Below, piece by piece: positions 1 through 11,735 of a stretch of 57,091 nucleotides of DNA; the first letter of the stretch is position 1; each line of letters opens with the position of its first letter. Below the pieces are notes generated by a model. That model did no database searches, was not told the DNA's origin, and saw only the letters and a list, made by a program, of their open reading frames with translations. The position numbers and the translations under genes were made by a program. Origin of the DNA: Pseudanabaena cinerea FACHB-1277 (GTDB lineage: Bacteria; Cyanobacteriota; Cyanobacteriia; Pseudanabaenales; Pseudanabaenaceae); NCBI RefSeq assembly GCF_014696345.1, contig NZ_JACJPY010000018.1, positions 1-57,091 of the forward strand, read 5' to 3'.

Positions 1-369
1 AATTTTGAAGGATTACCTGCAATTCTCAGAGAAAAATATGATCGGGGCGAGTACACGGAAATCCCAGATCTGCCCCATCCCTCACTGCCTTCTGATTGGG
101 ATAAGCTACTCAATCGCTTGCTTACAGGCGATCTGTATCCTCTTTTTCAATCAATTACCAACGCAGCTTTTTCAAATCCGATTTTGCTGGTGGCGCGAAA
201 TGATCTTTATGGTGCGATTAGCAACTCAAAGATTAGCGATCGCTTAGGGGCGCTTCGCGCTGGCTTAGATATGCTCTTGGCTTCGGGGTATGAGATGTCG
301 CCAGAAAATAAAAATCTGTGGAATCAGGCGATCGCTGAATTAAATTTTCCCGATGAGGTGAAATTATGA
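1..369 (+). CDS. Hypothetical protein, 5'-truncated by window edge
   Basis: The frame is open from base 1 to the stop at 367-369, giving 122 visible residues with no start codon, so the gene begins before the window. The sequence is soluble, with no membrane segment; the visible part has a Pro-rich stretch followed by a helical region. I recognise no family. Its stop overlaps the next start by four bases (ATGA), so it is the first visible member of a translationally coupled + strand operon of four genes. Confidence 0.7.
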   Translation, partial: NFEGLPAILREKYDRGEYTEIPDLPHPSLPSDWDKLLNRLLTGDLYPLFQSITNAAFSNPILLVARNDLYGAISNSKISDRLGALRAGLDMLLASGYEMSPENKNLWNQAIAELNFPDEVKL

Positions 370-728
370 CTCAAGTAATTGAAAGGCTTGCTAATGCCAC
401 TTTTCGCAGCCAATGGCAAAATATACCTGATAGCACTTTGAAGCTAAATTTTGATGTGCTGATTGACCATTTTGGGCTAACTGATGTGGGTAGCTTTTGC
501 CTTGTGCATTGGCAAGCAAAACCTAAGGGATTGCGGCGTTGGGGGGTGTATTGTCGCTCGGCTGATATGTATTACGCGGCTGATGAGATATTTTTTGATG
601 AAGGCTTGACGATCCAAACCTTGCAGATGGATGAGCGGGTGGTTAAAACTGTGCCAACGGCGGTGCTATTTTTGAATGGCGCGATCGCTGAAAGCATAAA
701 CAATCAAATATTGGTGACAAAGCTATGA
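366..728 (+). CDS. Hypothetical protein (120 aa)
   Basis: Begins in an ATGA overlap with the preceding gene and ends in an ATGA overlap with the next, which fixes both ends. It is a soluble alpha/beta-looking protein with a Trp- and Tyr-rich middle (residues 45-75) and an acidic patch. No motif is recognised. Coupling to its neighbours suggests that the four products are made in fixed ratio and may work together. Confidence 0.65.
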   Translation: MTQVIERLANATFRSQWQNIPDSTLKLNFDVLIDHFGLTDVGSFCLVHWQAKPKGLRRWGVYCRSADMYYAADEIFFDEGLTIQTLQMDERVVKTVPTAVLFLNGAIAESINNQILVTKL

Positions 729-997
729 GTATTGGTGACATTCTGGCGATCGCTACTTTTTTGATCTCCCTTTTGGTGATCGCCTATGGCTTTGGGGCAA
801 TGGCGAACCGTTTAGAGAAAGTGGAGCGCGATTTGAATGATTTAGGGGTGAAGGTATCAACAAACTTTCAAAGATGCGATAGCGATACCCGTGAGCTAGA
901 TCGCAAAATCTCTGGGCTTGCCAATAATTTCGCAAGGCTAGATGAGCGCTGCGCGATGCTTGAGCGTGAAGAGACGATTGGGAGGATGCGTGGGTAA
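725..997 (+). CDS. Small membrane-anchored coiled-coil protein (90 aa)
   Basis: One N-terminal membrane helix (about residues 5-27), then a charged heptad-like region (30-85) with repeated Leu/Val and Glu/Arg, typical of a coiled coil. The start overlaps the previous stop (ATGA). The layout resembles small phage or plasmid membrane proteins of the haemolysin-XhlA or spanin kind, but no family is assigned. Third gene of the coupled operon. Confidence 0.65.
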   Translation: MSIGDILAIATFLISLLVIAYGFGAMANRLEKVERDLNDLGVKVSTNFQRCDSDTRELDRKISGLANNFARLDERCAMLEREETIGRMRG

Positions 998-1413
998 TGG
1001 GTAAGATTTGTGACCGAAAAATCATTGTTTCGGCAATCATTACACTCCCAAATGGGACTATCTATAGATTTGAGAATCCACCTATCCCCCCTTTCTACAG
1101 ACAGCCGAGAATATGGGATATCAAAGGCGATTACAGCGTAACAATTTGGAATAACGATTCCATAAAAATGACTGCTGAAGAATTTAGATTCATTACTCCT
1201 AACAATCCTTCCCCACCCCCCCCTTCAGATATTTCGTATTTAGGGCTTTTTTCGGACAAGCAGGTTTTAACCATAACTAAAATTGAAGAATTTAGGGGTA
1301 ATTGCCAATGCACTCCTGATTCTTGTCGTGTGGATTGTGCTGGTGCGCCTGATGGATTTTGTTGTATTGATCACAGCCTCACGAATCGCTTGCTCCAAAC
1401 TTTGCAGGGTTGA
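997..1413 (+). CDS. Hypothetical protein with Cys-rich C-terminus (138 aa)
   Basis: The start overlaps the previous stop (TAATG). The N-terminal 75 residues look like beta structure. A Pro run (about residues 70-76) follows, and residues 102-125 hold seven cysteines in CxC...C...C...CC spacing, suggesting a metal site or disulfides. There is no signal peptide. Last gene of the + operon; it converges on the - strand gene that ends two bases downstream. Function unknown. Confidence 0.6.
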   Translation: MGKICDRKIIVSAIITLPNGTIYRFENPPIPPFYRQPRIWDIKGDYSVTIWNNDSIKMTAEEFRFITPNNPSPPPPSDISYLGLFSDKQVLTITKIEEFRGNCQCTPDSCRVDCAGAPDGFCCIDHSLTNRLLQTLQG

Positions 1414-1414
1414 G

Positions 1415-1609
1415 CTAACGTTTTAGCAAGGGTAATAAACCCATGACAGATAGCTGAAATGCGAGACCACATAACATCATTGCCAGAAAGTAAGGCAAGA
1501 TGCTCCATACACACCAAAGGAAAAATAGCAGTGAAGCGATCGCTGGAATTAGAAATAGCGATCGCAGATAAGTAAAAACTGACCTTGGCTTAGCTGATTT
1601 TAATTGCAT
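1415..1609 (-). CDS. Small membrane protein (64 aa)
   Basis: Two hydrophobic helices (about residues 14-36 and 38-58) after a basic N-terminus, so the N-terminus is probably cytoplasmic. It lies five bases downstream of the translocase gene on the same strand and is almost certainly cotranscribed with it. Its role may be tied to the translocase, for example as a membrane partner or, in an AICE-like reading, a spread-type protein; this is inference from position only. Confidence 0.5.
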   Translation of the reverse strand: MQLKSAKPRSVFTYLRSLFLIPAIASLLFFLWCVWSILPYFLAMMLCGLAFQLSVMGLLPLLKR

Positions 1610-1614
1610 AGTTG

Positions 1615-2901
1615 TTAACCTGCCGAAAATTCTAAATTGTCTGATTCACCACGAACGACACCGTGATTTTTATCGGCTAACCATTGAAAATATTGCCTGA
1701 TTTCTTTGGTGTCTGTGTCGCGAAATATCCTGATATTTTGTTTGACCTGCCTAGCCGTGATGTAGGTGTTTTGCTTTTTGGCATAGTTGACGATCGCCTC
1801 CAATGGTGTTGACAAACCTGTTGACAAATTGTCAACGGTTGACGAGTTGACAGGCGTTGACAGCCTTTTTGGCGTGTCAAAAAGGTCTAAATCGGTGTCA
1901 ACACTGTCAACGTCAACGCTGTCAACGGGGATGGTCACATAGTCTTTTGGCATCGGCAACTGTGGCAAAGCAACGCGATCAATCTTTGGTAATTCGCAGG
2001 GAAGATCGTCCAACATGGCGGGAAATTGGGCGGCGGCGATGAAGGTTTTAACCTGATCATCTTTGAGGGATTTGGCTCTATCCGCCGCAAATTTGCCAAG
2101 GCTGACGATCGCAAAGCATTCACGGATTGATCCTTGACCTTCAATGCCTAAACTCTTGACTTCGGAACCTTGGGACAAAATGATTAGCCTGATTTGGACT
2201 TTGCGGGCTTCTCTCACAATCAACATGATCTGTTCTGTAAACTTTTTGCCAAGGGTGGCAGCAGCAGCAGGGAACTCATCAATCAGCACTAGCAATGGTT
2301 CAAATTGCTTTTGTCCTTTGCCCCTTGCGTCATAGCGGCTATCCATGAGTTCGACTAAGCGATCAACTTCTTTGGCGATCGCTTTGTAATTTCTACCCAT
2401 GCCGATAACATTCATACCTTGCCAGTCATCGGGCGCGGCGTGGCTGTCTAGTACGATGCTTGGTGCTGAAGCATGGCTGACCAGATACTTAACCAAGGTG
2501 CTTTTGCCCGATCCTGTTTCGCCTAATACGAGAATGTGCGGCTTAGATAATGCTTTGCGGATGTCGGAAAACATTAGCGGCGCGGGTTGTGGCTCTGGTT
2601 CAGGCATTGCGCTTTGGGGGCGCATTTCATGATCGATATACCTTTGATATGAATTTTGAGATTGAATTTCGCTGATGTGGCGGTAATTCAGTGTGTAGGC
2701 TTGCAGATCGTCTAGACGTTTAGAGACTGCGAACAGAATCGCGCTGTTGCCAAACATAAATAGCTTTGGGGCTATGCCCTGACGGGGAAGCATCACAAAT
2801 ATGCAGGAACAAATTGCTAGTCCATAGGCGGCTATGGAGCAATGCCGACTGTGGCGAGTTACGCGATCGCTAAGTAGTAGTTGAGATGGGTGCATATTCA
2901 T
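1615..2901 (-). CDS. Membrane-anchored FtsK/HerA-type DNA translocase
   Basis: 428 residues. The N-terminus has two hydrophobic helices (about 22-40 and 44-60), then a linker. The P-loop ATPase domain has Walker A GETGSGKST at 127-135 and Walker B LLVLIDEF at 203-210. A low-complexity linker (about 326-365) is rich in Val-Asp and Ser-Thr-Pro, and the last 60 residues look like a winged helix. This order matches DNA-pumping ATPases of the FtsK/TraB class, where the C-terminal winged helix reads a short repeated DNA motif. The expected role is moving element DNA through a membrane pore during transfer. A terminator sits just before the gene, so it may have its own promoter or depend on read-through. 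A VirD4-type coupling protein is the alternative. Confidence 0.75.
   Translation of the reverse strand: MNMHPSQLLLSDRVTRHSRHCSIAAYGLAICSCIFVMLPRQGIAPKLFMFGNSAILFAVSKRLDDLQAYTLNYRHISEIQSQNSYQRYIDHEMRPQSAMPEPEPQPAPLMFSDIRKALSKPHILVLGETGSGKSTLVKYLVSHASAPSIVLDSHAAPDDWQGMNVIGMGRNYKAIAKEVDRLVELMDSRYDARGKGQKQFEPLLVLIDEFPAAAATLGKKFTEQIMLIVREARKVQIRLIILSQGSEVKSLGIEGQGSIRECFAIVSLGKFAADRAKSLKDDQVKTFIAAAQFPAMLDDLPCELPKIDRVALPQLPMPKDYVTIPVDSVDVDSVDTDLDLFDTPKRLSTPVNSSTVDNLSTGLSTPLEAIVNYAKKQNTYITARQVKQNIRIFRDTDTKEIRQYFQWLADKNHGVVRGESDNLEFSAG
1808..1926. repeat. Cluster of ten GTTGAC/GTCAAC hexamers in the translocase gene
   Basis: GTTGAC begins at 1808, 1820, 1838, 1846 and 1856; the reverse complement GTCAAC begins at 1831, 1897, 1906, 1912 and 1921. 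Most are extended to GTTGACA/TGTCAAC. The copies fall in different reading frames of the gene and so encode different residues (Val-Asp, Val-Asn, or Leu-Ser-Thr), which argues that the DNA word is conserved rather than the peptide. Position and form recall the clt/TRS repeats read by Streptomyces TraB translocases. Confidence 0.7.
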
Positions 2902-2903
2902 AC

Positions 2904-2926
2904 AAAAAAAGCGCTCATGGCGCTTT
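2904..2926 (-). terminator. Rho-independent terminator upstream of the translocase gene
   Basis: On the - strand AAAGCGC, a five-base loop and GCGCTTT are followed by a run of T. It stops transcription of the operon that ends at 2932 and lies directly before the translocase start (2901), so it separates or attenuates translocase expression from the upstream operon. Confidence 0.7.
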
Positions 2927-2931
2927 GATTT

Positions 2932-3234
2932 TTAGGACTTTTGGCAAGCTTCTAGGGCTTGCTTTAACTGCTGTTCGGTCATGTTTTGGGTGCTGATATT
3001 GCCAATATCGCAGTTTAGCTTTTGCAGTTCTTGCTCTAGGGCTTTGCGGTCAGCAAGTTTGGTTTTTGGGTGCAGGCGTTGCGGTGGTGGTGATGGTTGT
3101 GCGATCGCTTCTTCTTGTTTGGGCTGCTCTTTGGCAATAGGGCGGGTCAATCCCTCAAGGAAGTAGCCAAATAGCGATCCACTAGTGAAGGTCAGGAAGA
3201 TGATCGCCGCCCAAAATTTAATCTTCGTCATCAT
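2932..3234 (-). CDS. Single-pass membrane protein with Pro-rich linker (100 aa)
   Basis: One N-terminal membrane helix (about residues 6-25), a Pro/Gln/Glu-rich spacer and a C-terminal helical region with two cysteines. The start is taken at the ATG at 3234, which overlaps the end of the acidic gene upstream by 17 bases; ATG 3231 is equally good, and the frame is open further up to 3270. No family recognised. Last gene before the terminator at 2904-2926. Confidence 0.55.
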   Translation of the reverse strand: MMTKIKFWAAIIFLTFTSGSLFGYFLEGLTRPIAKEQPKQEEAIAQPSPPPQRLHPKTKLADRKALEQELQKLNCDIGNISTQNMTEQQLKQALEACQKS

Positions 3235-3340
3235 CTGGTTCATCTGGTTCATCCTCCTCTTCGTCATCATCGGAATCCCACCAGTCTGGGTTAGCGTTGG
3301 TTAGGGCATCCCAGAATGTCCATTTTTTGGGGTCACTCAT
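3218..3340 (-). CDS. Tiny acidic-tail protein (40 aa)
   Basis: Starts at the ATG at 3340 in an ATGA overlap with the stop of the gene upstream. After a Trp-rich N-terminal half (WTFWDAL, then PDWW), the last 20 residues are almost all Asp/Glu. Such tails occur in DNA mimics, SSB-like interaction tails and histone-like inhibitors, but nothing more specific is supported. It is kept as a gene because of the coupled overlaps on both sides. Confidence 0.5.
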   Translation of the reverse strand: MSDPKKWTFWDALTNANPDWWDSDDDEEEDEPDEPDDDED

Positions 3341-3699
3341 GCTGCTTGATCCTCTGGTTCGATGAGTGCCACTGATTGCGCTTCGATTTCGTTGGTGGCA
3401 ACAAAGGAGGCATTGCCACTGACAAACCAACGGATAAATTTGCGCTGAATCCCTACAAGAACGGCTTTCTTTACCGCTTTCCAGTCGATGTTATCAAGTA
3501 GCTCATCGGCTACGATCTGCTCAAGGGTCAGGGTTTCTTCAGGGTTGTCATCGATGCTGATGTCAAGATTTTGATCGGGGTTGTCATCGATGCTGATGTC
3601 AAGATTTTGATCGGGGTTGGCATCGACTGCTAGGAGTTTGTTTAATTTGCGTGTCATGATGTTGATTGAATAATTTTGACGGTGTGGGCTGCGGCTCAT
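3337..3699 (-). CDS. Hypothetical protein with internal 12-residue duplication (120 aa)
   Basis: The start at 3699 overlaps the upstream stop (ATGA); an internal Met at 3657 is a possible alternative. Residues about 28-51 are two exact copies of a 12-residue acidic unit (beginning NPDQNLD), encoded by a perfect 36-bp tandem repeat. The C-terminal half is helical and mixed-charge. No family recognised. Member of the - strand operon headed by the Xre regulator at 4401-4628. Confidence 0.55.
   Translation of the reverse strand: MSRSPHRQNYSINIMTRKLNKLLAVDANPDQNLDISIDDNPDQNLDISIDDNPEETLTLEQIVADELLDNIDWKAVKKAVLVGIQRKFIRWFVSGNASFVATNEIEAQSVALIEPEDQAA
3545..3616. repeat. Perfect 36-bp tandem duplication
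   Basis: Two identical 36-base copies (3545-3580 and 3581-3616) with a decayed third start after 3617. The repeat is in frame, adding 12 residues to the host protein. Perfect identity implies a recent duplication or ongoing copy-number change. Confidence 0.9.
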
Positions 3700-3917
3700 G
3701 CCGTTTTTTTAATGATGTATTTTGTACAAAACTGGCGACCGTATCCTTTGGGCCCTAGCTCTTTCCAGTTGATATGCTCTGGGCTGTATTGCCACAAAAC
3801 ATAAACGGCGTAAGGTGTTAGGTGATCTATGAATCCGTCTCCTAAATACGGTTCGTTTTTGTGGTAAACCAAATCGCCTAAAGAGTAGTCATCGCCAAAT
3901 AGATTAGGGCGTGGCAT
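3696..3917 (-). CDS. Hypothetical small protein (73 aa)
   Basis: The start is placed at the ATG at 3917, overlapping the lipoprotein gene by 14 bases; the frame is open upstream to 3962. The sequence contains LGDLVYHKNE and many aromatic residues, like small SH3-type or DUF beta-barrel proteins seen in plasmid operons. There is no membrane segment. Its stop overlaps the next start (ATGA). Function unknown. Confidence 0.5.
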   Translation of the reverse strand: MPRPNLFGDDYSLGDLVYHKNEPYLGDGFIDHLTPYAVYVLWQYSPEHINWKELGPKGYGRQFCTKYIIKKTA

Positions 3918-4404
3918 CGTCAGGCAAACAGGCTTTTGACGATTCAGGGTCAGGGATTGCACTGCCTGAAAACAAGACTTTTCCGCACTCTTTACCGTTT
4001 TTACGAATAAAAACTTTGGGCTTTACATTGTCTTCAAAGGTATGTAGGGATGCACCGACACTCGCATTATTGGGCAATTCAAGCTTGACGCTAAAGGGTA
4101 AAACGCCCTTTACTTCCTCAATCTGTCCTGCACCAAAATCATCTCGTTTATGGATTGAATACATCCCAGTTACCGAAACCCCTGCCTTGCCTTCATAACG
4201 AATTTCGTAAGTGTCTTTAGCCTGTGGCAAGGCTTTTGGGCTTGGGTTAGGGCTGGCAATTGGCGCGACGGCGGCGGGCGCTTTGGCTTCTGGTGTGGCA
4301 GTGACTGTCGCAGTGACGGTCACTGTGGGGACTGGGTTGATTTGGGGTAAATACCCACAACCTGTAAGTAACAAGCTAATCAAAGTTAAGCGGCGATCGC
4401 TCAT
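3904..4404 (-). CDS. Lipoprotein with MmpS-like beta-sandwich pattern
   Basis: 166 residues. A short basic N-terminus and hydrophobic core end in the lipobox LLTGC (Cys at about 16), so it is exported and lipid-anchored. A Thr/Val and Ala/Pro-rich stalk (20-62) follows. The C-terminal 100 residues are predicted beta, with an LPFSVKLELPNNA pattern and two cysteines near the end, reminiscent of MmpS-like proteins common in actinobacteria; that match is from memory and weak. The start overlaps the upstream regulator's stop by four bases, so it is the first structural gene of the operon. It may act at the cell surface during transfer. Confidence 0.6.
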   Translation of the reverse strand: MSDRRLTLISLLLTGCGYLPQINPVPTVTVTATVTATPEAKAPAAVAPIASPNPSPKALPQAKDTYEIRYEGKAGVSVTGMYSIHKRDDFGAGQIEEVKGVLPFSVKLELPNNASVGASLHTFEDNVKPKVFIRKNGKECGKVLFSGSAIPDPESSKACLPDDATP

Positions 4405-4628
4405 GTAGTTTCCTCAACCTCTTTCATTACAAATAAATCACCCACTTCACAGTTGAAGTGGTTGCACAGCGTGTTGATCGTGGCTGCATCAATGCGATCA
4501 AACTCATTGTTATGCAGCTTATTAACGGTTGCTGTGCTTAATCCAGTCAGGCGAGAAAGTTCACGCTGGCTTAATCGCGTGTCTCTTTCTTTCATCAAAA
4601 CGGCTAAGCGGCAATACATTTTTTTCAC
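4401..4628 (-). CDS. Xre/Cro-type transcriptional regulator (75 aa)
   Basis: A single HTH_3-like domain: residues about 18-60 hold LSQRELSRLTGLSTATVNKL, the classic Cro/CI helix-turn-helix, followed by the closing helices and a short tail ending at VGDLFVM. It matches YozG/Cro-size regulators. It opens the - strand operon toward the lipoprotein and faces the + strand gene at 4804 across a promoter region with repeated TAGCTA and ACAATG words, so it probably represses itself and that gene. Confidence 0.85.
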   Translation of the reverse strand: MKKMYCRLAVLMKERDTRLSQRELSRLTGLSTATVNKLHNNEFDRIDAATINTLCNHFNCEVGDLFVMKEVEETT

Positions 4629-4644
4629 ACACTAATTGTACTTG

Positions 4645-4750
4645 TTAGCTAAAACAATGCAATACAAGGCTTAGCTACTTCATTACAGTAGCAATATAAC
4701 ATACTTTTGTCTATAGACTTGACAATGTAGTAGGTAGCTGATACATTGTT
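4645..4750. promoter_or_regulatory. Likely operators of the 4401-4628 regulator
   Basis: TTAGCTA at 4645 and 4671 and GTAGCTGA at 4734, together with ACAATG near 4654 and 4723 and its inverse CATTGT at 4744, are spread between two divergent genes. Repeats overlapping a promoter next to a Xre gene are the usual operator layout. Assignment to this regulator is inference. Confidence 0.5.
4719..4747 (+). promoter_or_regulatory. Sigma70-type promoter for the gene at 4804
   Basis: TTGACA (4719-4724), a 17-base spacer, then TACATT (4742-4747). The leader that follows holds a small hairpin (AAGCGG/CCGCTT, 4755-4775) and an AGGAG ribosome binding site just before ATG 4804. Confidence 0.65.
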
Positions 4751-4803
4751 ATTCAAGCGGGTAACAAAACCGCTTAGAACCTTGAAAACCGAATAGGAGA
4801 CAC

Positions 4804-5253
4804 ATGGAATCCAACAACAGGAAAGACCCGTTTGGTGGTCAGTTTGGACACATTCAAGTACCAGACAGAGGCATTGCTGACGCTGGGGCTTATAGCATTC
4901 TCAACGGCATCATGATGTTTGGGCTAGGTATGCTCGCTCAAGAAAATGAGCGTAACTACCAAGAAAAAATCCAAGCACAAAGGATCGCCGAGCTAGAGAA
5001 GCAACACGCTTATGAGCTAAGGGCTAAGGAGCTAGAGCTAATGGGGAGGGCGCAGGTGGAAGCGAAACAGCAACCACCGCAAGTTAACCCCTATCGCGGT
5101 GCAAACACAGTGGCAGAGCTAGAGAAAATCCTGCTAGGTCACTCACCCTCACCACAGCGTGAGGCTGTACTGCGAGAGCTGGCTAAGTACCCTGAGACGA
5201 TGCCCCTAGCTCAACTCCCTACTGCTACCACCAGACTGCTAACTGGCAAATAA
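4804..5253 (+). CDS. Hypothetical protein with coiled-coil centre (149 aa)
   Basis: Strong AGGAG seven bases before the ATG and a consensus promoter upstream suggest good expression. Residues 28-45 are a Gly/Met-rich hydrophobic stretch, 46-85 a charged coiled coil rich in Glu, Gln, Arg and Ala, and the C-terminal third a soluble helical part. No family recognised. It stands as a single transcription unit or leads into the gene at 5311, which ends at a terminator. Confidence 0.6.
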   Translation: MESNNRKDPFGGQFGHIQVPDRGIADAGAYSILNGIMMFGLGMLAQENERNYQEKIQAQRIAELEKQHAYELRAKELELMGRAQVEAKQQPPQVNPYRGANTVAELEKILLGHSPSPQREAVLRELAKYPETMPLAQLPTATTRLLTGK

Positions 5254-5310
5254 AAAACAAGCTTGGGGGAAACCCCAAGCCCTCTAAAACTCTTACCCAA
5301 ATTAAACACC

Positions 5311-5529
5311 ATGCAAGCTCAAGATTTGAACCGCTTTGATTTATTTTTCTTGCCTAACTGCGACCACAAGGGTACGACCATCAACACGGTCTATCAGGTC
5401 AAAGAACACACCGATGACGGAATTATCGCTCACGGCTCTTTGCAAAGCCAGTACGGATCGCTAAACCTAGACTTTTACCTCCCCAACTGGGCAGAGGTAG
5501 AGCTATTACCAATCGAGCAAGCACTATAA
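5311..5529 (+). CDS. Hypothetical protein (72 aa)
   Basis: The start is taken at ATG 5311, because the upstream in-frame extension (from 5263) reads through the spacer after the previous gene. It is a compact beta-rich protein ending in ELLPIEQAL. The stop is followed within ten bases by a strong terminator, closing the transcription unit that begins at 4804. Confidence 0.55.
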   Translation: MQAQDLNRFDLFFLPNCDHKGTTINTVYQVKEHTDDGIIAHGSLQSQYGSLNLDFYLPNWAEVELLPIEQAL

Positions 5530-5537
5530 ATCCTACC

Positions 5538-5563
5538 GCCCCCCTGTTGGGGGGCTTTTACTT
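5538..5563 (+). terminator. Rho-independent terminator
   Basis: Perfect seven-base stem GCCCCCC/GGGGGGC with a TGTT loop, then TTTTACTTT. Ends the 4804-5529 unit. Confidence 0.85.
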
Positions 5564-5585
5564 TATCCAGAAACAAACAAAATCT

Positions 5586-5846
5586 ATGCTTGAGCAATAC
5601 ATTAAAACCCCCGCCAATTCCGACTATGTTTCAGATTTTTTGGTACTACCTGAGGGGCTGAACGAAGAAGTTGTGATTGATATTTTCGTTGAGTACTTGG
5701 CTCCCATGAGGCTATCGCGCCGTGACACCTATGAGCATATGGCGGCTTTGCTGGGAGAGTGCAGCTTTATCGAAAAATACGAGTTCAGCGATGAGGGCCC
5801 TAAAAGCTTCACTGTCCTCCGCTATGAAGTCGAAATCAGCATCTAA
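5586..5846 (+). CDS. Hypothetical protein (86 aa)
   Basis: Start at ATG 5586; an upstream in-frame start at 5547 would lie inside the preceding terminator. It is a small soluble alpha/beta protein with many acidic residues. It sits between two terminators, so it is either transcribed by read-through or from a promoter I cannot identify in the 40-base gap. Function unknown. Confidence 0.5.
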   Translation: MLEQYIKTPANSDYVSDFLVLPEGLNEEVVIDIFVEYLAPMRLSRRDTYEHMAALLGECSFIEKYEFSDEGPKSFTVLRYEVEISI

Positions 5847-5849
5847 AAA

Positions 5850-5886
5850 AAGGGGCGATCGCTAACTTAGCGATCGCCCCTTTTTT
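5850..5886. terminator. Bidirectional terminator built on HIP1 octamers
   Basis: A-tract, GGGGCGATCGCTA (5852-5864), three-base loop, TAGCGATCGCCCC (5868-5880), then T-tract. The 13-base perfect stem lies between convergent genes and works in both directions; it contains GCGATCGC in both arms. Confidence 0.9.
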
Positions 5887-6196
5887 ATGGCTTATTTCTC
5901 CTGTTCATCTGCCCGATCTGATGCTTCAGTCTATTCAATTCGCGCTCAATCTCTAAGTGATCATCAGGCTTAGCCACCTTTGTGGGCTTAGCCTGTGGCA
6001 ATGGCTCATCCTTTTTGCCCTCACTCATCACCAATCGCCACGCCACGACCAGCAAAGCCAAAACTGTCAAAAGTGGCACTGCGTAAAACAAAAATATCAA
6101 TGCAAAGCCCAAAAATATCTCTAGAAAGTGACTAGCCAATACAGCGATCGCTATCCCCAATATCACTAATAACAAAAGTCTAGTTGATGTACTCAT
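5885..6196 (-). CDS. Two-helix membrane protein with charged tail (103 aa)
   Basis: Two hydrophobic segments (about residues 5-25 and 27-57, the second long enough to span twice), then a cytoplasmic tail of Lys/Glu/Pro and a short coiled coil. It is last of three genes in the repressor operon (6885 to 5885). Membrane proteins cotranscribed with a prophage-type repressor are often superinfection-exclusion factors; here that is inference from position. Confidence 0.6.
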   Translation of the reverse strand: MSTSTRLLLLVILGIAIAVLASHFLEIFLGFALIFLFYAVPLLTVLALLVVAWRLVMSEGKKDEPLPQAKPTKVAKPDDHLEIERELNRLKHQIGQMNRRNKP

Positions 6197-6205
6197 GCCA
6201 ATAGT

Positions 6206-6538
6206 TTAAATGTCATATCTACCGCTTGTAACCATCCGTCCCCCAAAAATCATTGCCGCTATCCCGATAAAAACCTCAGCCAATGATGTCGGCGTGATGG
6301 TAACTATCCCACCCATAAATATCAAAACCACGGACAGCAAAAGCATGATGAAACCTGCATTACGAGATTGCGGACTGCCAAACAAAAAAGTACATATGCC
6401 ACCAATCAGTAAAACAAGGCTGCCCCCTGCGGCAAGTCCTCTAAATGTGAACAATGATATTTGTGAGCTAAAGATTATGTTCTGACCTAGAAACCAGAAT
6501 CCAAAAAAGAACAGTCCTAACCCAGCTAAACGGATCAT
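6206..6538 (-). CDS. Four-helix membrane protein (110 aa)
   Basis: Four hydrophobic segments spread over the whole length (about 3-22, 30-50, 58-78 and 83-104) with very short loops. The ATG overlaps the repressor's stop by one base (TAATG), so it is expressed with the repressor while the element is quiescent. An exclusion or immunity role is plausible but not shown by sequence. Confidence 0.6.
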   Translation of the reverse strand: MIRLAGLGLFFFGFWFLGQNIIFSSQISLFTFRGLAAGGSLVLLIGGICTFLFGSPQSRNAGFIMLLLSVVLIFMGGIVTITPTSLAEVFIGIAAMIFGGRMVTSGRYDI

Positions 6539-6885
6539 TATTTACTCCCTACCATCTGAACTACGCGATCGCTCAAAAACTTAAAAACCTCTAACTGGTC
6601 ATTAGTTGGCAAGGAATCAATTTCTTTTTTTACCTTGTCCAAACGCAATGGTGAAACTTTTTTTTGACTCAAAGGTTTGCCAGTAATCATAGTTTGAAGC
6701 TCTTCAAGCGAGTACCCCAACACAGGGGCAAGCATAACAAGATTTTCGCGATCAGGTAGTCTCTCGCCAGCTTCCCAACTACCTATAGTCGTGTGACTAA
6801 CGCCCACCAAACGAGCAAACTCAACTTTGGTGCGCGATCCTCTGGCTTCTTTGATTAATCTTGCAAACCTTTCTTTGTCATTCAT
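6538..6885 (-). CDS. Xre/CI-type repressor of the element
   Basis: 115 residues from the ATG at 6885. The frame is open 60 bases further, but that stretch lies in the operator region. The N-terminal helix-turn-helix (about residues 18-42: FARLVGVSHTTIGSWEAG) is a textbook HTH_3 domain. The C-terminal 50 residues are helical and probably mediate dimerisation; there is no LexA/CI-type peptidase domain, so induction by self-cleavage is unlikely. It faces the + strand operon leading to rep, xis and int across a repeat-rich spacer, the arrangement of a lysogeny repressor. It also drives the two membrane genes behind it. Confidence 0.85.
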   Translation of the reverse strand: MNDKERFARLIKEARGSRTKVEFARLVGVSHTTIGSWEAGERLPDRENLVMLAPVLGYSLEELQTMITGKPLSQKKVSPLRLDKVKKEIDSLPTNDQLEVFKFLSDRVVQMVGSK

Positions 6886-6979
6886 AAATGCAAGCACACA
6901 AACATGAATGAATATTAGCATTCTTTTGTGAATGTATCCGTTCATACTTGACTATCCATATGAATGTGTGCATTAATTC
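6886..6979. promoter_or_regulatory. Divergent operator/promoter region with repeated TGAAT words
   Basis: Between the repressor and the + operon, TGAAT/ATTCA words recur in both orientations, many extended to ATGAATG or GTTCAT, and further copies continue into the first bases of the downstream gene. TTGACT at 6948-6953 could be the -35 box of the rightward promoter; no good -10 box is evident. Binding by the adjacent repressor is inference. Confidence 0.6.
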
Positions 6980-7018
6980 ATGATGAATGAACGAACACAT
7001 TTATTAATACAGGATTTT

Positions 7019-7213
7019 ATGAAAGCTAACGTTCAGATTAAAACAACCCACACTACGGCGCGAACCCTCAGGGCGCAAGCCGCCTTTGAGGGGCTAAGTA
7101 CTAGCGAATTAGCCGAAAACATGATTTTGCACTGCCTCACAGATGACGAGCTATTGAAGCGACTCGTTGCCGAGTGCCACGCCGCCAAAGCCCAAGCCAA
7201 ACAAGCCGCCTAA
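7019..7213 (+). CDS. Small protein, possible ribbon-helix-helix type (64 aa)
   Basis: First gene of the rightward operon. Start at ATG 7019 with AGGA four bases ahead; an upstream ATG at 6980 sits inside the operator repeats and lacks a ribosome binding site. The pattern (short beta start, then two helices with ELAENMI) resembles Arc/MetJ ribbon-helix-helix proteins, which would suit a Cro-like early regulator, but the match is weak. The tail is rich in Ala, Lys and Gln. Confidence 0.5.
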   Translation: MKANVQIKTTHTTARTLRAQAAFEGLSTSELAENMILHCLTDDELLKRLVAECHAAKAQAKQAA

Positions 7214-7295
7214 ACCTGCCGCGCATCTCTACAACATCGACCCCGCCTCTCTAGGCGGCAGACTTCGCCAAACCCACCAATTTGAATAAGAACCC

Positions 7296-7571
7296 ATGCC
7301 AAACCCATCAGGCTACTACCTAGAACTACCCACATCCATCAGCCTAAAGATCGAGCAGTTCTCGAAAATGCAGCTTTACAAACTAGCAACCGATTGTTCG
7401 TCCGAATTTGATTTTCCTTTCATGGAGGAAGAGGAATGCTTCACACCAGAGGAATTGCAAGCCCTCAACGATTTGAGCGAATCCGCTCAAATCCAACTAC
7501 TCCGATGGACAACCGAACTACTCCAAGAAAAAATCCGACTCCAACAAAAAATCAGTGCAAAAGCCGCCTAA
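7296..7571 (+). CDS. Hypothetical acidic helical protein (91 aa)
   Basis: Soluble, mostly helical, with an acidic run (MEEEE, about residues 43-47) and a C-terminal amphipathic helix rich in Gln/Lys. Second gene of the rightward operon. No family recognised. Confidence 0.55.
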   Translation: MPNPSGYYLELPTSISLKIEQFSKMQLYKLATDCSSEFDFPFMEEEECFTPEELQALNDLSESAQIQLLRWTTELLQEKIRLQQKISAKAA

Positions 7572-7616
7572 CCCAATCGAAACAGCCTTTTTTGATTTTT
7601 TCAAAGCCAAAACACC

Positions 7617-7856
7617 ATGCAACTCCAAGAAATATTCCCCAGAGAAGTCATAGACGAAATCACAGCCTTCACCCCTGCCACAAAAGCAATGGTGATATGG
7701 CAACTAGCCGATGAAGTCAGCGAAAAGCTGCCCGAATTTGCCGATCAAATCTCAGCCACCACCATGCAGTGGCTAACCGCCCTCACCACCAAACAGGCAA
7801 TCCACACCATCAACCATCTATCAGCCATGCTTCTAGCGATTTATGAAGACAACTAA
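7617..7856 (+). CDS. Hypothetical helical protein (79 aa)
   Basis: All-helical small protein with no membrane segment or signal. It is similar in size and helical character to the preceding product, and the two might interact. The next gene starts inside its last codons (ATG 7843), indicating translational coupling. Confidence 0.55.
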   Translation: MQLQEIFPREVIDEITAFTPATKAMVIWQLADEVSEKLPEFADQISATTMQWLTALTTKQAIHTINHLSAMLLAIYEDN

Positions 7857-7980
7857 ACTTATCCCCGCTTTGCTTACCCTCGCATTAGCATTACCCGCCT
7901 TTGCCTACAGCCAAGACCCTCGTAGTTGCGCCGATCCTCGTACCCAATTTCCTAGTAACCCGCCATGTCAGAAGCAATAG
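7843..7980 (+). CDS. Tiny secreted protein with signal peptide (45 aa)
   Basis: ATG 7843 lies within the end of the preceding gene and the stop at 7980 within the start of the following gene. The product has a typical signal peptide: basic MKTTK, a Leu/Ala core and an AFA cleavage site at about residue 21. About 24 mature residues remain, with two cysteines 14 residues apart that could form a disulfide. Double overlap and a convincing signal peptide make this a real gene despite its length. Function unknown; the mature part could act in the periplasm. Confidence 0.65.
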   Translation: MKTTKLIPALLTLALALPAFAYSQDPRSCADPRTQFPSNPPCQKQ

Positions 7981-8321
7981 AGTATTCAACTCACGAATAT
8001 CGCGCCAAGATACTTGATCTTGTGGCAAAGCTCAACGATGCCGAACGAGAGCGCGATCAATCGCAAGACAAGATCAAAAATCTGGAAGGCATCATCAACA
8101 GCAATGAAGCTGAGCAGAAATCAAGATTTGAAAAGCTTCAAACCATTGCCATCAATGGGATTGAAGCCGCAAGCCTAATCCTCACAGTCATCACCCAAGC
8201 AGACACAGCCCACTGGCAGAAAAAAGAGAACCTACGCAATGCGATCGCTGTTCTTCAAAGTGTGCAGAAGCGCATAGCCAAAGCCGATCCTTTCCCATGT
8301 CCTTTTGATGATGATTTTTAA
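7965..8321 (+). CDS. Coiled-coil protein (118 aa)
   Basis: Overlaps the secreted miniprotein gene by 16 bases. Residues 15-60 form a strongly charged coiled coil, followed by a helical hairpin with Ala/Ile and a short tail ending in acidic residues (FDDDF). A short acidic-aromatic tail of this kind resembles those used to bind replication proteins, but that is speculation. No family recognised. Confidence 0.6.
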   Translation: MSEAIEYSTHEYRAKILDLVAKLNDAERERDQSQDKIKNLEGIINSNEAEQKSRFEKLQTIAINGIEAASLILTVITQADTAHWQKKENLRNAIAVLQSVQKRIAKADPFPCPFDDDF

Positions 8322-8326
8322 CCACT

Positions 8327-8698
8327 ATGACACTGACACTTGCAAAACAAACAGCCCTAGTTTTGACTGAACGACTAGTTTGTCAGCCCAAACCACACAG
8401 AGCGCAATGCCTAGAGATTTTCCCCTGTTTCCATGCAAACAAGGGGTTAAAAGTAGTGATCGATCCCAGAAATGTACAAGCTAGTTACTCAACAGTCCAC
8501 CCCAGTGGCTACACAGTACCTCACTCATTCATGCACTCTTTAGACAATGCCATCAAATTTTGTGACCTAGTGGCTCAAGCTTGCCCAGAGCTAACGGTCG
8601 AAGGTTTGATTCTTGTTTCTTTACCTGTAAGCGATCGCAAAAGGATAAAAGCAATTCTGCGAGAAATATCCGACAGTCTAGAGCCATTTGAAGACTAA
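8327..8698 (+). CDS. Hypothetical protein (123 aa)
   Basis: Starts five bases after the previous stop. Soluble alpha/beta protein with no recognised motif. Its stop is followed at once by a strong terminator, so it marks the end of the promoter-proximal half of the operon; genes from 8770 on need read-through, antitermination or another promoter. Confidence 0.6.
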   Translation: MTLTLAKQTALVLTERLVCQPKPHRAQCLEIFPCFHANKGLKVVIDPRNVQASYSTVHPSGYTVPHSFMHSLDNAIKFCDLVAQACPELTVEGLILVSLPVSDRKRIKAILREISDSLEPFED

Positions 8699-8700
8699 TT

Positions 8701-8748
8701 AAAAAAGCGCAACTAATCGAAATTTTCGAGTAGTTGCGCTTTTTTTGT
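8701..8748 (+). terminator. Terminator/attenuator before the replication genes
   Basis: A6 tract, GCGCAACTA (8707-8715), inner stem around TCGAAA/TTTTCGA, TAGTTGCGC (8731-8739), then T7. It lies inside the rightward operon between accessory genes and the rep block, a place where phage-like elements gate replication. Confidence 0.85.
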
Positions 8749-8769
8749 CCAAAAAACAACCGAAAAACG

Positions 8770-9012
8770 ATGAGACACAACAAATTACTAAGAGCTAAAG
8801 CTTGCACTTTGCTTAAAGTGCCTTTGTGCTGGGTTATAGACGTGATGCCCAATTGTGGGCATACCGCCTATTTTATCCATCTAATTGAACTACAGCCAAA
8901 CAATCGCCACAAATTCCACACCGAATTAGTACCGGCTGAAGTCCTAGAAGCGATTGCAGTTTATCCCATGTATCAACGCGACATAAGTTCACCTCACCCA
9001 TTTTATTTATGA
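8770..9012 (+). CDS. Hypothetical protein coupled to rep (80 aa)
   Basis: Start at ATG 8770; an earlier in-frame start would be within the terminator. The last four bases overlap the rep start (ATGA), so rep translation probably depends on it. It has two cysteines (about residues 11 and 28) and a His-containing middle, but no clear zinc finger. Function unknown, perhaps a replication accessory or copy-control protein. Confidence 0.55.
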   Translation: MRHNKLLRAKACTLLKVPLCWVIDVMPNCGHTAYFIHLIELQPNNRHKFHTELVPAEVLEAIAVYPMYQRDISSPHPFYL

Positions 9013-10085
9013 CCGCCAACATTTACGCCAAAATACCAGCCGAAGCGATCGACATCGCCGAAGCTCACCTCAATAAATCTGAATTTCGAGTCTGGCTATA
9101 CCTTTGGAAAGTTGACGCATTTGGCGACAAAATGCGCGTTTTTCCATCACCAGAAAAAATTGGTGAAGCCCTAAACCTACACAAGCGAACGGTTACGAGA
9201 GCCTGTGACACCCTCGAAGAATTAGGGCTATTTACATTCAAAATCCAAGAATGGCAAGGCATCAATCATTACGGCTCCAAATCCGATCAGGCTAGAGACA
9301 AACTAGCCAAAAAATTTCAGATTGAAACCTCGGTTGTTTCTGGGTGTTGTGACAGCGCTGTCCAAAATTTGACAGAACGATCCAATTTTGGACAGAACGA
9401 TCCAAATCGTGACAGCGCTGTCCAAAATTTGACAGAACGATCCCAAAAATGTACGGAGTTGTCAAATTTTGGACAGGATTGTCAAAATCAAGGCTCAAAA
9501 GTGGCTCCTGAAGCGAGTTTCACCCCCTCTAATAACTCTTTAATAACTATTAATAACTCTCTAACTAACAAGGGCGAACAAAATTTTAACGAAACCCGAA
9601 ATGAGAGAGAGGAGGAGTTTATTGATTTTTCAGGAAACGGAGAAGAGAAGAATTTTGATCAAGAGGTAGAAATCGTGGAGAGCGTGCAGGCAACTTTAAA
9701 AATTGTTCAAGAGAGCCTCAATCAAAAGGGATCTAACCAAGCAGATTCAGAGAGGGAGGTCAAACCAGAAAGCGCAAACAATGGTGAGGATCATTTTTCC
9801 GCCGCGCCGCCCGAAACTTTTTTTAAAAAATTGCGAGATTTTGTGATTTATGAAGCCAAACAAGATCCCAAAATCAATGCCCCAGAGATTTGGGCAGATA
9901 CCGTCATCCGCCGCAATCGCGCTGACTGGCAAGAAAAATGGGACGCATGGGAAAAATCCCGCGCTCAAACCACAACCTACACCCCGCCCAAAGTCGAAAT
10001 ATCCCCCGATCCTGATGTCCGCCGCCGTGCAGTTGAGGAGGCTAAAAAGCTGCTACCTGAATGGATGAGGCGCAATCGTGGTTAG
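9009..10085 (+). CDS. Winged-helix replication initiator with internal iterons
   Basis: 358 residues. Residues 10-85 form a helix-turn-helix domain of the phage O/plasmid RepA kind, with sensing of a recognition helix around LNLHKRTVTRACDTLEELG. The middle (about 113-160) is a low-complexity zone made by DNA repeats read in different frames, followed by an acidic linker. The C-terminal 80 residues hold a helical, Trp-rich part (WADTVIRRNRADWQEKWDAW) that could bind a helicase or its loader. Initiator N-terminus, iterons inside the gene and an AT-rich stretch after them is the lambda O arrangement. ATG overlaps the previous stop; the next gene starts inside its last codons. No helicase gene is seen, so host DnaB is probably used. 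Confidence 0.75.
   Translation: MTANIYAKIPAEAIDIAEAHLNKSEFRVWLYLWKVDAFGDKMRVFPSPEKIGEALNLHKRTVTRACDTLEELGLFTFKIQEWQGINHYGSKSDQARDKLAKKFQIETSVVSGCCDSAVQNLTERSNFGQNDPNRDSAVQNLTERSQKCTELSNFGQDCQNQGSKVAPEASFTPSNNSLITINNSLTNKGEQNFNETRNEREEEFIDFSGNGEEKNFDQEVEIVESVQATLKIVQESLNQKGSNQADSEREVKPESANNGEDHFSAAPPETFFKKLRDFVIYEAKQDPKINAPEIWADTVIRRNRADWQEKWDAWEKSRAQTTTYTPPKVEISPDPDVRRRAVEEAKKLLPEWMRRNRG
9349..9487. repeat. Iterons inside the rep gene (candidate replication origin)
   Basis: A 35-bp sequence starting GTGACAGCGCTGTCC occurs exactly at 9349-9383 and 9409-9443. Its distal half (GACAGAACGATCC after a T-run) has a third copy at 9391-9403 in another reading frame. An inverted copy (TTGTCAAATTTTGGACAG, 9459-9476) and a partial one (GATTGTCAAAATC, 9477-9489) follow. 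The core is the near-palindrome TGTCCAAAATTTGACA. Repetition across reading frames argues for selection on DNA, as expected for initiator binding sites. Confidence 0.8.
9530..9577. other. AT-rich unwinding element with TAATAACT repeats
   Basis: Three copies of TAATAACT start at 9530, 9541 and 9551 (10-11 base spacing, one helical turn) in an AT-rich stretch right after the iterons. This is the expected form of a DNA unwinding element of an origin. Confidence 0.6.
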
Positions 10086-10320
10086 CACAGTCCAACGCCC
10101 GATTTTGAAAAATCAGGCGATCGCGCCGTCCAAAATCGAAACCACAGGCACAGACCTATCCCACCTGATTACCAAACGCGATGTGCTGATGACCCTGCGC
10201 GGCTTTGATTGGCAGCATCCCCGAATGCTTGCCTATCTAGAGCGTTGCGGCGCAAAAAGCCGCCATTACCTCACCGAAAAACAACTCAAAAACCTTGTCG
10301 AAAAACTAGAAGCCCTATGA
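10078..10320 (+). CDS. Hypothetical protein between rep and xis (80 aa)
   Basis: GTG start at 10078 inside the last codons of rep; the stop overlaps the next ATG (ATGA at 10317-10320). A soluble protein with a flexible N-terminal 30 residues and a helical C-terminal half (YLERCGAKSRHYLTEKQLKN) that looks like a small DNA- or protein-binding helical bundle. Function unknown. Confidence 0.55.
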   Translation: MVSTVQRPILKNQAIAPSKIETTGTDLSHLITKRDVLMTLRGFDWQHPRMLAYLERCGAKSRHYLTEKQLKNLVEKLEAL

Positions 10321-10520
10321 ACAAATTTTGGTATGACACCAAACCCGCCGCCATTGAGCTAGGCATTGCCGAAAGGCAACTCAGGAAACTTCGCGCCGAA
10401 GGGATTCTCAAAAAAGGGCAGCATTACCGCTTTAAGAATCCCACAGCCGCAAAGCCTAAATACCTGTGGAACATTCGGGCGATCGCATTGGTGCTTGAGG
10501 GCGATCAGTCCGCGACATGA
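10317..10520 (+). CDS. Excisionase-like (MerR/Xis-fold) small protein (67 aa)
   Basis: Starts at ATG 10317 in an ATGA overlap. The sequence has the winged-helix pattern of excisionases: W...A..LGIAERQLRKLRAEG, then a wing (KKGQHYRFKNP) and a short last helix. It is convergent with the integrase and overlaps its 3' end by 65 bases. Size, fold pattern and position agree with Xis, a directionality factor that binds the attachment site and promotes excision. As the last gene of the repressed operon it would be made together with Rep on induction. Confidence 0.75.
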   Translation: MNKFWYDTKPAAIELGIAERQLRKLRAEGILKKGQHYRFKNPTAAKPKYLWNIRAIALVLEGDQSAT

Positions 10521-11571
10521 TCGCATCGTATGCGCGTTGATGGTGGCGATCGCTAATCCAGTGGTGATAAATATCCGTATGCACCTGTACGCTATGCCCC
10601 ATTTGCATCGCCGCCAACTCAACAGGCAAGCCAAACTCCAGAGTACGCACCGCCCAACAATGGCGCAAAGTGTAAGGCGTAAATACACCTGCGCTCTTGA
10701 AATAGCGACTCACCTTGCTACCCAGATCGCTGTTAGTTTTGCCCGTGATGTTTGGCAATTCCACATTAGCCAAATCAAAAAGCCCAACCCATTCAGGGAA
10801 GCAAGCCCAAACCCTACGCCTTCCCGTTTTGGTTTCTTCAAGCACTTGCAAGATTGGCAAAGTCGAAAAATCCAAATGGAAAACCTCATGATTTCGCAAC
10901 CCATAGACCGCCATCAATCCGTAAACATAGCGCCATTGCCTGTTTGTAATCTTAAAAAATCCATCCACAATCTCTTGATCACTTGGCAAATCACGCGGCG
11001 TAACCTTCTTGGGTGAATATGTCCCAGAATACTTACGCAAATTGATTTCTAAACCTGCAAACCTAGCCAAAGCACCCAAAGCCATGCAGTAAACCTGTCT
11101 AGTCCTAGTGTCAGGCGTGGTACTAGTCACAGTTTTGTACAAAACCTCATCGGTCAAAGGTGCATCCATCGGTAAACGTTGCAAAGCCTCCCAGTAATTT
11201 TTCCGCCATGTGGACTGTGATTTAGAGTTTCTTTCCCTGCGAGTAAAGTAATCAGCCTCAAACCTGCTCACCCAATCCCCCGCCGTCATCGCTTCACTGG
11301 TTTCATTGAGATAACCCGACCACTCAAACTCACGACAATCAAGCAAAGCCCCGATCTTCCTTGCCTCTGCCTCCGCTTCTTTGATACCCACAGGGTTAGC
11401 CCTGACCCCAAGCGCTATGCGTTGCTGATAAGCTTCATGCTTCAAAGAATTTGGCTTAGGCGGTAAAGTCGCTCGAAGGTACAAGCGATCACCAATTGCT
11501 TCAATCTTTACCCCCACCTTTGCTGATTTTAAGCGTCCATTCGCTTGAGAAATTCTGGTGTCAATAGTCAT
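10456..11571 (-). CDS. Tyrosine recombinase (integrase)
   Basis: 371 residues. An N-terminal arm-binding-like part is followed by a core-binding domain (about 95-175) and the catalytic domain (about 195-345) with Arg226 (YGLRNHE), Lys near 248, Arg303 and His304 (YTLRH), His326 (MGHS) and the nucleophile Tyr335 (TDIYHHW). The usual His of the HxxR box is Tyr300, a substitution seen in some cyanobacterial integrases. The gene begins about 85 bases from the tRNA-Leu remnant and reads away from it. It should integrate and, with Xis, excise this element at the 3' end of tRNA-Leu(CAA). Confidence 0.9.
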   Translation of the reverse strand: MTIDTRISQANGRLKSAKVGVKIEAIGDRLYLRATLPPKPNSLKHEAYQQRIALGVRANPVGIKEAEAEARKIGALLDCREFEWSGYLNETSEAMTAGDWVSRFEADYFTRRERNSKSQSTWRKNYWEALQRLPMDAPLTDEVLYKTVTSTTPDTRTRQVYCMALGALARFAGLEINLRKYSGTYSPKKVTPRDLPSDQEIVDGFFKITNRQWRYVYGLMAVYGLRNHEVFHLDFSTLPILQVLEETKTGRRRVWACFPEWVGLFDLANVELPNITGKTNSDLGSKVSRYFKSAGVFTPYTLRHCWAVRTLEFGLPVELAAMQMGHSVQVHTDIYHHWISDRHHQRAYDAIMSRTDRPQAPMRSPECSTGI

Positions 11572-11657
11572 AACCTAGCCCTGTTTTTAGTCTAAATTTT
11601 AGTCAAGAATAAAAAAGCAAATTTGAAAGCCTTGCTATGTATTAATTATAGGTTTTT

Positions 11658-11720
11658 GACTAACAGACTCAAAATCTGACGACAGCGATGTCATGAGAGT
11701 TCGATTCTCTCTTTGCCCAT
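11658..11720 (+). other. Attachment site: orphan 3' part of tRNA-Leu(CAA)
   Basis: From the anticodon arm (CAGA CTCAAAA TCTG, anticodon CAA) through the long variable arm (GACAGCGATGTC), the T arm (GAGAG TTCGATT CTCTC) and the 3' acceptor strand TTTGCCCA, this reads as the last two thirds of a tRNA-Leu. The bases upstream do not provide the matching acceptor strand or a D arm, so it is not a working tRNA. It is what remains when an element integrates into a tRNA 3' end: the host 3' copy is left here and the tRNA is rebuilt at the far left end. Confidence 0.85.
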
Positions 11721-11735
11721 AGCTTAAGATCCGTA

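Follow-up and report, generated by a model that had tools for sequence, protein, structure and literature searches.

The nearest known layout to the locus described here is that of the Streptomyces plasmid pWTY27, as set out in the cited sections. Its TraA is an FtsK-like translocase with two predicted transmembrane segments, and its clt locus consists of 16 bp within traA and 159 bp adjoining it, with four TGACACC repeats; TraA binds clt in vitro, and transfer needs both traA and clt (PMC3583192). The TraB proteins of pSVH1 and pIJ101 are FtsK homologues that recognise 8-bp TRS repeats at clt, and TraB is reported to read DNA through its helix alpha-3 (PMC4170104, PMC3583192). Elements of the AICE type combine an integrase, a Rep and an FtsK-type Tra, and have been reported as limited to Actinomycetales (PMC3218068). 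Outside transfer systems, phage lambda has its iterons in the middle of gene O, as the cited account describes, so that sites inside the gene of their reader can work (PMC7466680). For cyanobacterial plasmids, CyRepA1/2 have been described as proteins with DUF3854 and a helicase, and the word "iteron" is absent from the main text of the three papers concerned (PMC10899382, PMC10079941, PMC9978351). Among the matches listed in literature searches for DUF3987, CyRepA, iterons and FtsK/TraB in cyanobacteria, there was no paper on arrays such as those reported below.

The window, by which we mean the whole 57,091-nt stretch of DNA analysed, contains in positions 1-11721 the part of an integrative element that is present on the contig (Table 1). 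The original prediction placed ten GTTGAC/GTCAAC words inside the ATPase gene of this element, in both orientations and three reading frames. All ten were found, together with an eleventh at 1786. The two orientations stand, as five of the ten words read GTTGAC on the gene strand and five read GTCAAC, but the three frames do not: six words are in phase 0, four in phase 2 and none in phase 1, which makes two codon phases (or three strand/phase classes). The words span residues ~326-365 and the predicted winged helix residues 365-428, and it is therefore correct that they stand directly before it. Their spacing is irregular.

Table 1. Features of the element and its motor gene in the window (position 1 is the first nucleotide).
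Feature	Coordinates	Strand	Remarks
428-aa P-loop ATPase	1615..2901	-	Two long N-terminal helices, motor (~110-320), linker, C-terminal winged helix
Winged-helix-coding DNA	1618..1809	-	Residues 365-428, from AlphaFold model
Putative recognition residues	1708..1752	-	R384, K387, Q388, R391 (helix 2) and T398 (start of helix 3), corresponding to columns 23, 26, 27, 30 and 37
Eleventh GTTGAC word	1786..1791	+	Inside helix 1 of the winged helix
Ten-word GTTGAC/GTCAAC array	1808..1926	1808+, 1820+, 1831-, 1838+, 1846+, 1856+, 1897-, 1906-, 1912-, 1921-	Linker-coding DNA
Small protein just upstream of ATPase gene	2932..3270	-	Weak similarity (28-31% identity) to small genes preceding the homologues on plasmids ABRG53g and pPg_01
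120-aa protein	3337..3699	-	39-41% identity over 59 aa to small genes that precede the ATPase gene on these two plasmids
HTH_3/CI-type repressor-like protein	6538..6945	-	
HTH_36 protein	9009..10085	+	Possible replication initiator
Tyrosine integrase	10456..11571	-	PF00589 23.0 bits, below curated cut-off 27.1
3' part (58 nt) of tRNA-Leu(CAA)	11664..11721	+	Likely attachment site

The array is non-random. Counting GTTGAC against expectation, as had been proposed, gave 40 copies on both strands of the window, compared with 18.07 +/- 4.28 in dinucleotide shuffles, and none of 100 shuffles reached 40. Eleven of these 40 lie within 141 bp (1786-1926), ten of them within 1808-1926, and the only other copy in 1-11721 outside the array is at position 9111. 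When the linker peptide was held fixed and codons were drawn from local usage, the ten observed words compared with a mean of 0.58 and a maximum of 4 in 2000 trials; allowing the best count of any hexamer in the same kind of recoding, ten compared with a mean of 2.69 and a maximum of 5 (300 trials). A scan for arrays of any hexamer found one other that is equally dense in the window, a tandem repeat of the TCGTAATTACGAAT type at 30687-30822.

The motor of the ATPase is FtsK/TcpA/HerA-like, with a DUF87 match of 30 bits, above the Pfam cut-off, and an FtsK_SpoIIIE match of 23.6 bits, just under the cut-off of 24. An AlphaFold model built from nine sequences has a mean pLDDT of 57. Confidence is low to middling in the motor, and the C-terminal domain is well defined, with 10-residue pLDDT means of 86-91 from residue 371 on and a mean of 73 for residues 361-370; the linker is repetitive and predicted to be without order (10-residue means of 25-28 over 321-360). 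The predicted winged helix is made up of a helix (365-377), a strand (381-382), a broken helix (383-393), a further helix (398-410) and a wing (415-426). Two long helices are predicted at the N-terminus, and hydrophobic stretches were noted by eye. A reading of the motor as a defence protein was rejected; the PADLOC matches fall in the P-loop region.

In structural comparisons, the motor model aligned with FtsK (6t8g; Z 10.3, rmsd 3.4, 156 aligned) and with the conjugation coupling protein TcpA of Clostridium pCW3 (6o1x; Z 10.2, rmsd 4.2, 165 aligned), which has an FtsK-like motor as does the window protein. TcpA works together with a conjugation apparatus, and to our knowledge no self-encoded word array has been described for it. 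The gamma domain of E. coli FtsK is a winged helix of a DNA pump that reads short repeated words, KOPS, which are spread over the chromosome with polarity, whereas the words in the window form one compact cluster of mixed orientation with one further copy in 1-11721. By hhalign, the motor matched TraB of pIJ101 at 97% over 234 columns, and the winged helix scored 0.1% against this TraB, the one compared, so that no relation is detectable. The reading part thus looks independent of Streptomyces TraB, as the original prediction had it. A PDB sequence search with the winged helix gave no relative that stands out, with calmodulins leading (E 0.009) and Zalpha domains at E of at least 0.3; structural comparison places it among generic winged helices, for instance Zalpha (1qbj; Z 9.1, rmsd 2.0, 61 aligned) and MecI (1okr; Z 8.1).

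A match is found in 16 of the 38 genomes of the order, own genome included, and a scan of genome contigs for relatives returned 10 loci, eight from Pseudanabaena and two from an uncultured cyanobacterium; the viral contigs and phage records searched had no relative. The GTTGAC cluster is present in none of the other 25 loci examined, although two copies of this word lie in or near the linker in L011 and L013, and one in L012. Other words are repeated in the linkers instead: GTCAGC (ten copies in L014, four each in L005 and L006), ATCAGC (seven to eight in L004, L016 and L020), GTCAAT (four to five in L003 and L011-L013) and ACTTAC (six in L007 and L019, both with another C-terminal domain). 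Among the 17 linkers extracted, four had no clear word (L002, L008-L010) and were omitted from the same-peptide test; all 13 tested exceed the null, two of them with another C-terminal domain. These 13 were picked after their words had been seen, and the any-hexamer null corrects for the choice of word. The own genome encodes three paralogous motors, associated with GTTGAC, with ATTGAC (on contig C15, locus p 0.04) and, weakly, with CAAGAC past the stop codon (C28, p 0.33).

L014 and L005 have a common word and common helix residues (SARKIQSS) with differing linker peptides, which indicates that the word is kept as the peptide drifts and that it changes together with the domain. Persistence of the array under peptide drift had been anticipated and is borne out by the alignment of homologues, but the word itself is not GTTGAC in other subfamilies. 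Homologues that lack GTTGAC, which had been put forward as evidence against the proposal, would have misled in that role, since most of those examined carry another word matched to their own domain. Selection at the DNA level, as first proposed, is supported by linker arrays that homologues keep as the peptide drifts, by the excess over the recoding null and by the difference in word between subfamilies. In L007, L019 and L151 (4661-5794), motors of this family end in a second type of C-terminal domain. The ATPase of the 6.4-kb Nostoc PCC 7524 plasmid apparently (by eye) has this L007/L019-type domain, without an ACTTAC-like array.

The association of winged helix and array extends further than the original prediction supposed, as the same module is also present in DUF3987 proteins, which have arrays inside their own genes. 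Across genomes of the phylum, a first, narrow winged-helix profile matched 10 of 386 genomes, a second one 61 of 291 and 44 of 195 (overlapping sets), and family profiles 61 of 217, 7 of 20 and 13 of 61. Among the distinct winged-helix proteins scanned against Pfam, DUF3987 was found in seven (L028, L029, L034 and those of L226, L230, L231 and L233), motor domains above cut-off in P0001 and L011, HerA-type matches below cut-off in the winged-helix proteins of L027, L033 and L035, and no match in L030 and the 426-aa winged-helix protein of L226. CyRepA proteins are plasmid replication proteins of the same phylum, but carry DUF3854, whereas the winged-helix family has DUF3987.

We collected 140 domain matches, reduced to 102 loci by removing identical domain peptides and scores <15, and a second set of 74 new loci, reduced to 69. 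A significant one-word array lies in or beside the winged-helix codons in 123 of these 171 non-identical loci (73/102 and 50/69), and 48 have none; the best hexamer was chosen per region, and the same choice was made in the shuffles. The 171 are not independent, as the second set contains many closely related loci (Nostocaceae motors with TGTAGAC). Significant arrays accompany 62 of 99 C-terminal and 61 of 72 internal domains. In paired 1-kb pieces of the same loci, arrays were found in 109 of 153 at the winged helix versus 10 of 153 elsewhere. Relative to the winged-helix codons, 49 of 104 arrays are downstream within coding sequence, 47 are past the stop codon (that is, with the middle site of the array beyond it) and eight are upstream in the linker, the class to which the window array belongs. 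No peptide can explain the 47 arrays past stop codons. Adjacent site spacings peak at 9-12 bp with no single period prominent, and we therefore make no claim of helical phasing.

Three contigs each carry a DUF3987-type or DUF3987-size gene together with a shorter winged-helix gene. On G537:C108, ATAGAC occurs seven times inside the DUF3987 gene and AAGACA six times after the 426-aa winged-helix gene; on G510:C26, ten GTCTAA (DUF3987) stand against six CCACAG; on G742:C985, the two arrays have the similar words AGTAGA and GTAGAC. Distinct words side by side on one contig or in one genome favour the view that each array is read by its own protein.

The aligned motifs (n=72; L004, L022 and L042 omitted) have a common core, TGNNGACA, with a score of 4.27 compared with at most 2.32 in 20 column-shuffled sets, which were given fewer restarts than the real set. 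GAC/GTC is present in 52 of the 72 motifs, where 11.9 were expected and the maximum in 200 sets was 22. For covariation, 115 motifs in 43 clusters (from 75 + 55 motifs) were anchored on G9 A10, and only comparisons between domains <45% identical were used, with family-wise p values over 67 protein columns. The column that came out on top for base 6 was R23 (p 0.033), that for base 7 was K26 (p 0.14) and that for base 8 was T37 (p 0.010, with Q27 second), and no column was significant family-wise for bases 5, 11 and 12 (0.147, 0.643 and 0.427). Columns 23, 26, 27 and 37 covary with the word, and column 30 falls short of significance. The first three of these and column 30 are spaced as i, i+3, i+4 and i+7 along a helix, and helix 3 begins with column 37.

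Six residue-base rules were first written down from the Pseudanabaena set alone. Outside Pseudanabaena three of them held at p<0.05: R23 with G6 (13/21 versus 5/23 for other residues, p 0.008), Q26 with C7 (8/14 versus 4/33, p 0.003) and S23 with A6 (5/10 versus 5/34, p 0.03). K26 with T7 (p 0.15), R30 with C11 (p 0.23) and A30 with T11 (0/2) were not significant there, and the rule linking residue 30 to base 11, which had no support outside Pseudanabaena, was dropped. On 28 representatives <50% identical, none of the six rules was significant. In leave-cluster-out top-1 prediction, column 27 gave base 8 correctly in 26.7 of 43 clusters compared with a baseline of 15.4, and columns 23 and 26 gave no gain for bases 6 and 7. 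When neighbours were chosen by columns 23, 26, 27 and 37, none of 150 random column sets did as well, whether Pseudanabaena was included or not, columns 27 and 37 having joined the recognition set after these same data had been looked at. Columns 23, 26, 27 and 30 were matched by 0 of 150 random sets when all loci were used and by 8 of 150 when Pseudanabaena was left out, and columns 23, 26 and 30 alone were no better than random columns (34 and 98 of 150). Pairs selected by hand, in which helix residues and word agree at 31-36% domain identity, are L011 with L080 and L124, L012 with L215, and L005 with L028 and L058; L011 among them is a motor of the FtsK type, and L028 and L124 belong to DUF3987. 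We read these patterns as recognition of the word by winged-helix residues that appears real but context-dependent, the rule being partial. That words track winged-helix residues supports, at the level of sequence, the proposal that the array is read by the gene's own C-terminal domain.

As in the TraB/clt systems, an FtsK/SpoIIIE-type motor goes with a cluster of short repeats in or next to the motor gene; the word and the cyanobacterial host are different, helix 2 covaries as well, and the winged helix has no detectable similarity to pIJ101 TraB. The 47 arrays past stop codons lie at the edge of their reader's gene much as clt of pWTY27 does in the sections cited above, whereas the window array occupies the linker ahead of the winged helix and most relatives' arrays come after it; moreover, the cyanobacterial word differs by subfamily and covaries with the domain.

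The gene set of the element resembles that of an AICE, with an integrase score below the Pfam cut-off. Chromosomal genes begin beyond the 3' end of tRNA-Leu, which is likely the attachment site of the element, and an intact tRNA-Leu(CAA) is present on another contig of the own genome and in four of the five relative loci scanned. In relatives, the neighbouring gene (11912) has the tRNA-Leu on its other side and on the opposite strand; the order of the flank differs, and a clean empty integration site was not found. The 15 element ORFs scanned contain no relaxase or other secretion gene, and in place of an AICE replication gene (RepSA, RepAM or Prim-Pol) they gave only the HTH_36 protein; the left part of the element, which may carry other transfer genes, is off the contig. 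In another genome of the genus, L251 (G014:C298) carries the end of a related element, with 85% identity along 1.4 kb (2311-3716) that takes in the integrase region and the 3' end of tRNA-Leu. By eye, a short tandem duplication that keeps the frame was seen at 3530-3620, inside the small gene 3337-3699. Elsewhere in the window, 45962-50134 encodes a protein of 1390 aa in which WD40 repeats occur together with a KAP NTPase domain.

We consider it very probable that the gene's own winged helix binds the array, whose words are well-supported candidate sites as far as sequence comparison goes. That the array serves, like clt, as a loading site from which double-stranded DNA is moved between cells may well be so, and we infer it with more reserve; the combined claim, that the gene's own winged helix binds the array and that a double-stranded DNA pump is loaded there in the manner of clt, is one that we hold with moderate confidence. 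In the mechanism that we infer, several ATPase subunits would bind the words through their winged helices, and the bases beside the constant GAC core would be read by helix 2 together with the start of helix 3. The bound subunits would assemble an FtsK/TcpA-like motor, which probably sits in the membrane, on the DNA of the element itself, and the motor would pump this DNA, probably double-stranded, after excision, to serve transfer to another cell rather than segregation. As a single stretch of DNA holds both site and reader, the two are inherited and swapped together, and related elements may in this way drift to new, often mutually distinct words.

The same domain and words could instead form a centromere-like or segregation site, with the motor acting at the septum to clear or partition the element's DNA. 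Homologues on plasmids do lie near replication genes, on ABRG53g (12.6 kb), on a 25-kb stretch of the 225-kb pPg_01 and, with another C-terminal domain, on pNOS7524.02 (6.4 kb), with no transfer gene except the motor annotated near them, and FtsK is the nearest solved motor besides TcpA. The copy in the window, however, belongs to an integrative element that has an integrase and a tRNA 3' end, and such an element has no need of partition as long as it is integrated; we regard segregation as rather unlikely. Against transfer, the 12 plasmid records with a relative were typed as non-mobilizable, although the conjugative pIJ101 is typed likewise.

We find it quite improbable that the array is a replication origin, with iterons for a replication initiator that merely happen to be in the motor gene. 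The DUF3987 proteins share the winged helix and have their arrays inside their own genes, which together with the lambda iterons in the middle of O speaks for such an origin, but where DUF3987 and shorter winged-helix genes share a contig the words are clearly different in two of three cases (similar in the third). Moreover, the CyRepA1-like replicase on C15 (below the NCBIfam cut-off, with DUF3854 above the Pfam cut-off) is without this winged helix, yet the paralogous motor gene on C15 still has a linker word. Lambda O has its binding sites in the middle of its own gene (PMC7466680), as the ATPase of the window probably does; lambda O is a replication initiator and no motor, whereas the ATPase gene encodes a motor and not an initiator. 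A lambda O-type origin layout may apply to the DUF3987 relatives.

Words that serve as operators, through which the protein controls nearby transcription, would fit a winged helix with clustered sites, which is typical of regulators. We think this very improbable, with 96 of 104 arrays downstream of the winged-helix codons and 47 past the stop, away from the gene's own promoter, although control of a following gene is conceivable. That the words have no DNA function and come from codon bias or repeat slippage in a low-complexity linker, which is indeed repetitive and disordered in the model (pLDDT 25-28), is already disfavoured and hardly credible given the recoding null, the two orientations and phases, the irregular spacing, the arrays past stop codons, the common core and the covariation.

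Returning to an array bound by the gene's own winged helix, we tentatively propose a portable self-addressing module on cyanobacterial plasmids and integrative elements, made up of a winged helix and of an array of the words it binds, placed within its coding DNA or immediately next to it, which would be shuffled between pumps and DUF3987 replication-type proteins and whose words would drift via a few helix-2 and helix-3 residues; for the pumps, this would mean a Streptomyces-like, relaxase-free spread of double-stranded DNA outside actinomycetes. If this is true, many mutually distinct addresses would exist, also within one cell, and a cis-acting site would be named for many cyanobacterial plasmid motors and DUF3987 proteins. 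It would also suggest mutually distinct vectors for cyanobacteria, and single-protein plasmid spread between filament cells would become testable outside Streptomyces. The 115 domain-word pairs in 43 clusters constitute a natural series for how a winged helix reads DNA.

Several further arrays were seen on other contigs. On small Pseudanabaena contigs, arrays lie on the upstream side of a serine-recombinase-size gene in L227 (8328-8530, eight TGTAAA), L228 (6031-6225, nine GTTAAA) and L232 (5624-5773, nine TATAGA), where the recombinase was assigned by eye in the first two and by length in the third; their A+T-rich words differ from the TGNNGACA type. The contig of a 58%-identical homologue, L229, has 14 AGTCTA (6334-6515) and eight TCGTCA (3510-3650), with no reader assigned, and L022, in another genome, has five AGTCTA plus five GTAGAC. 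In L231, seven GTCACA (5452-5671) are upstream of a 377-aa ORF without a Pfam or NCBIfam match, on a 7.4-kb contig that also carries a DUF3987 gene and a ParB-like gene.
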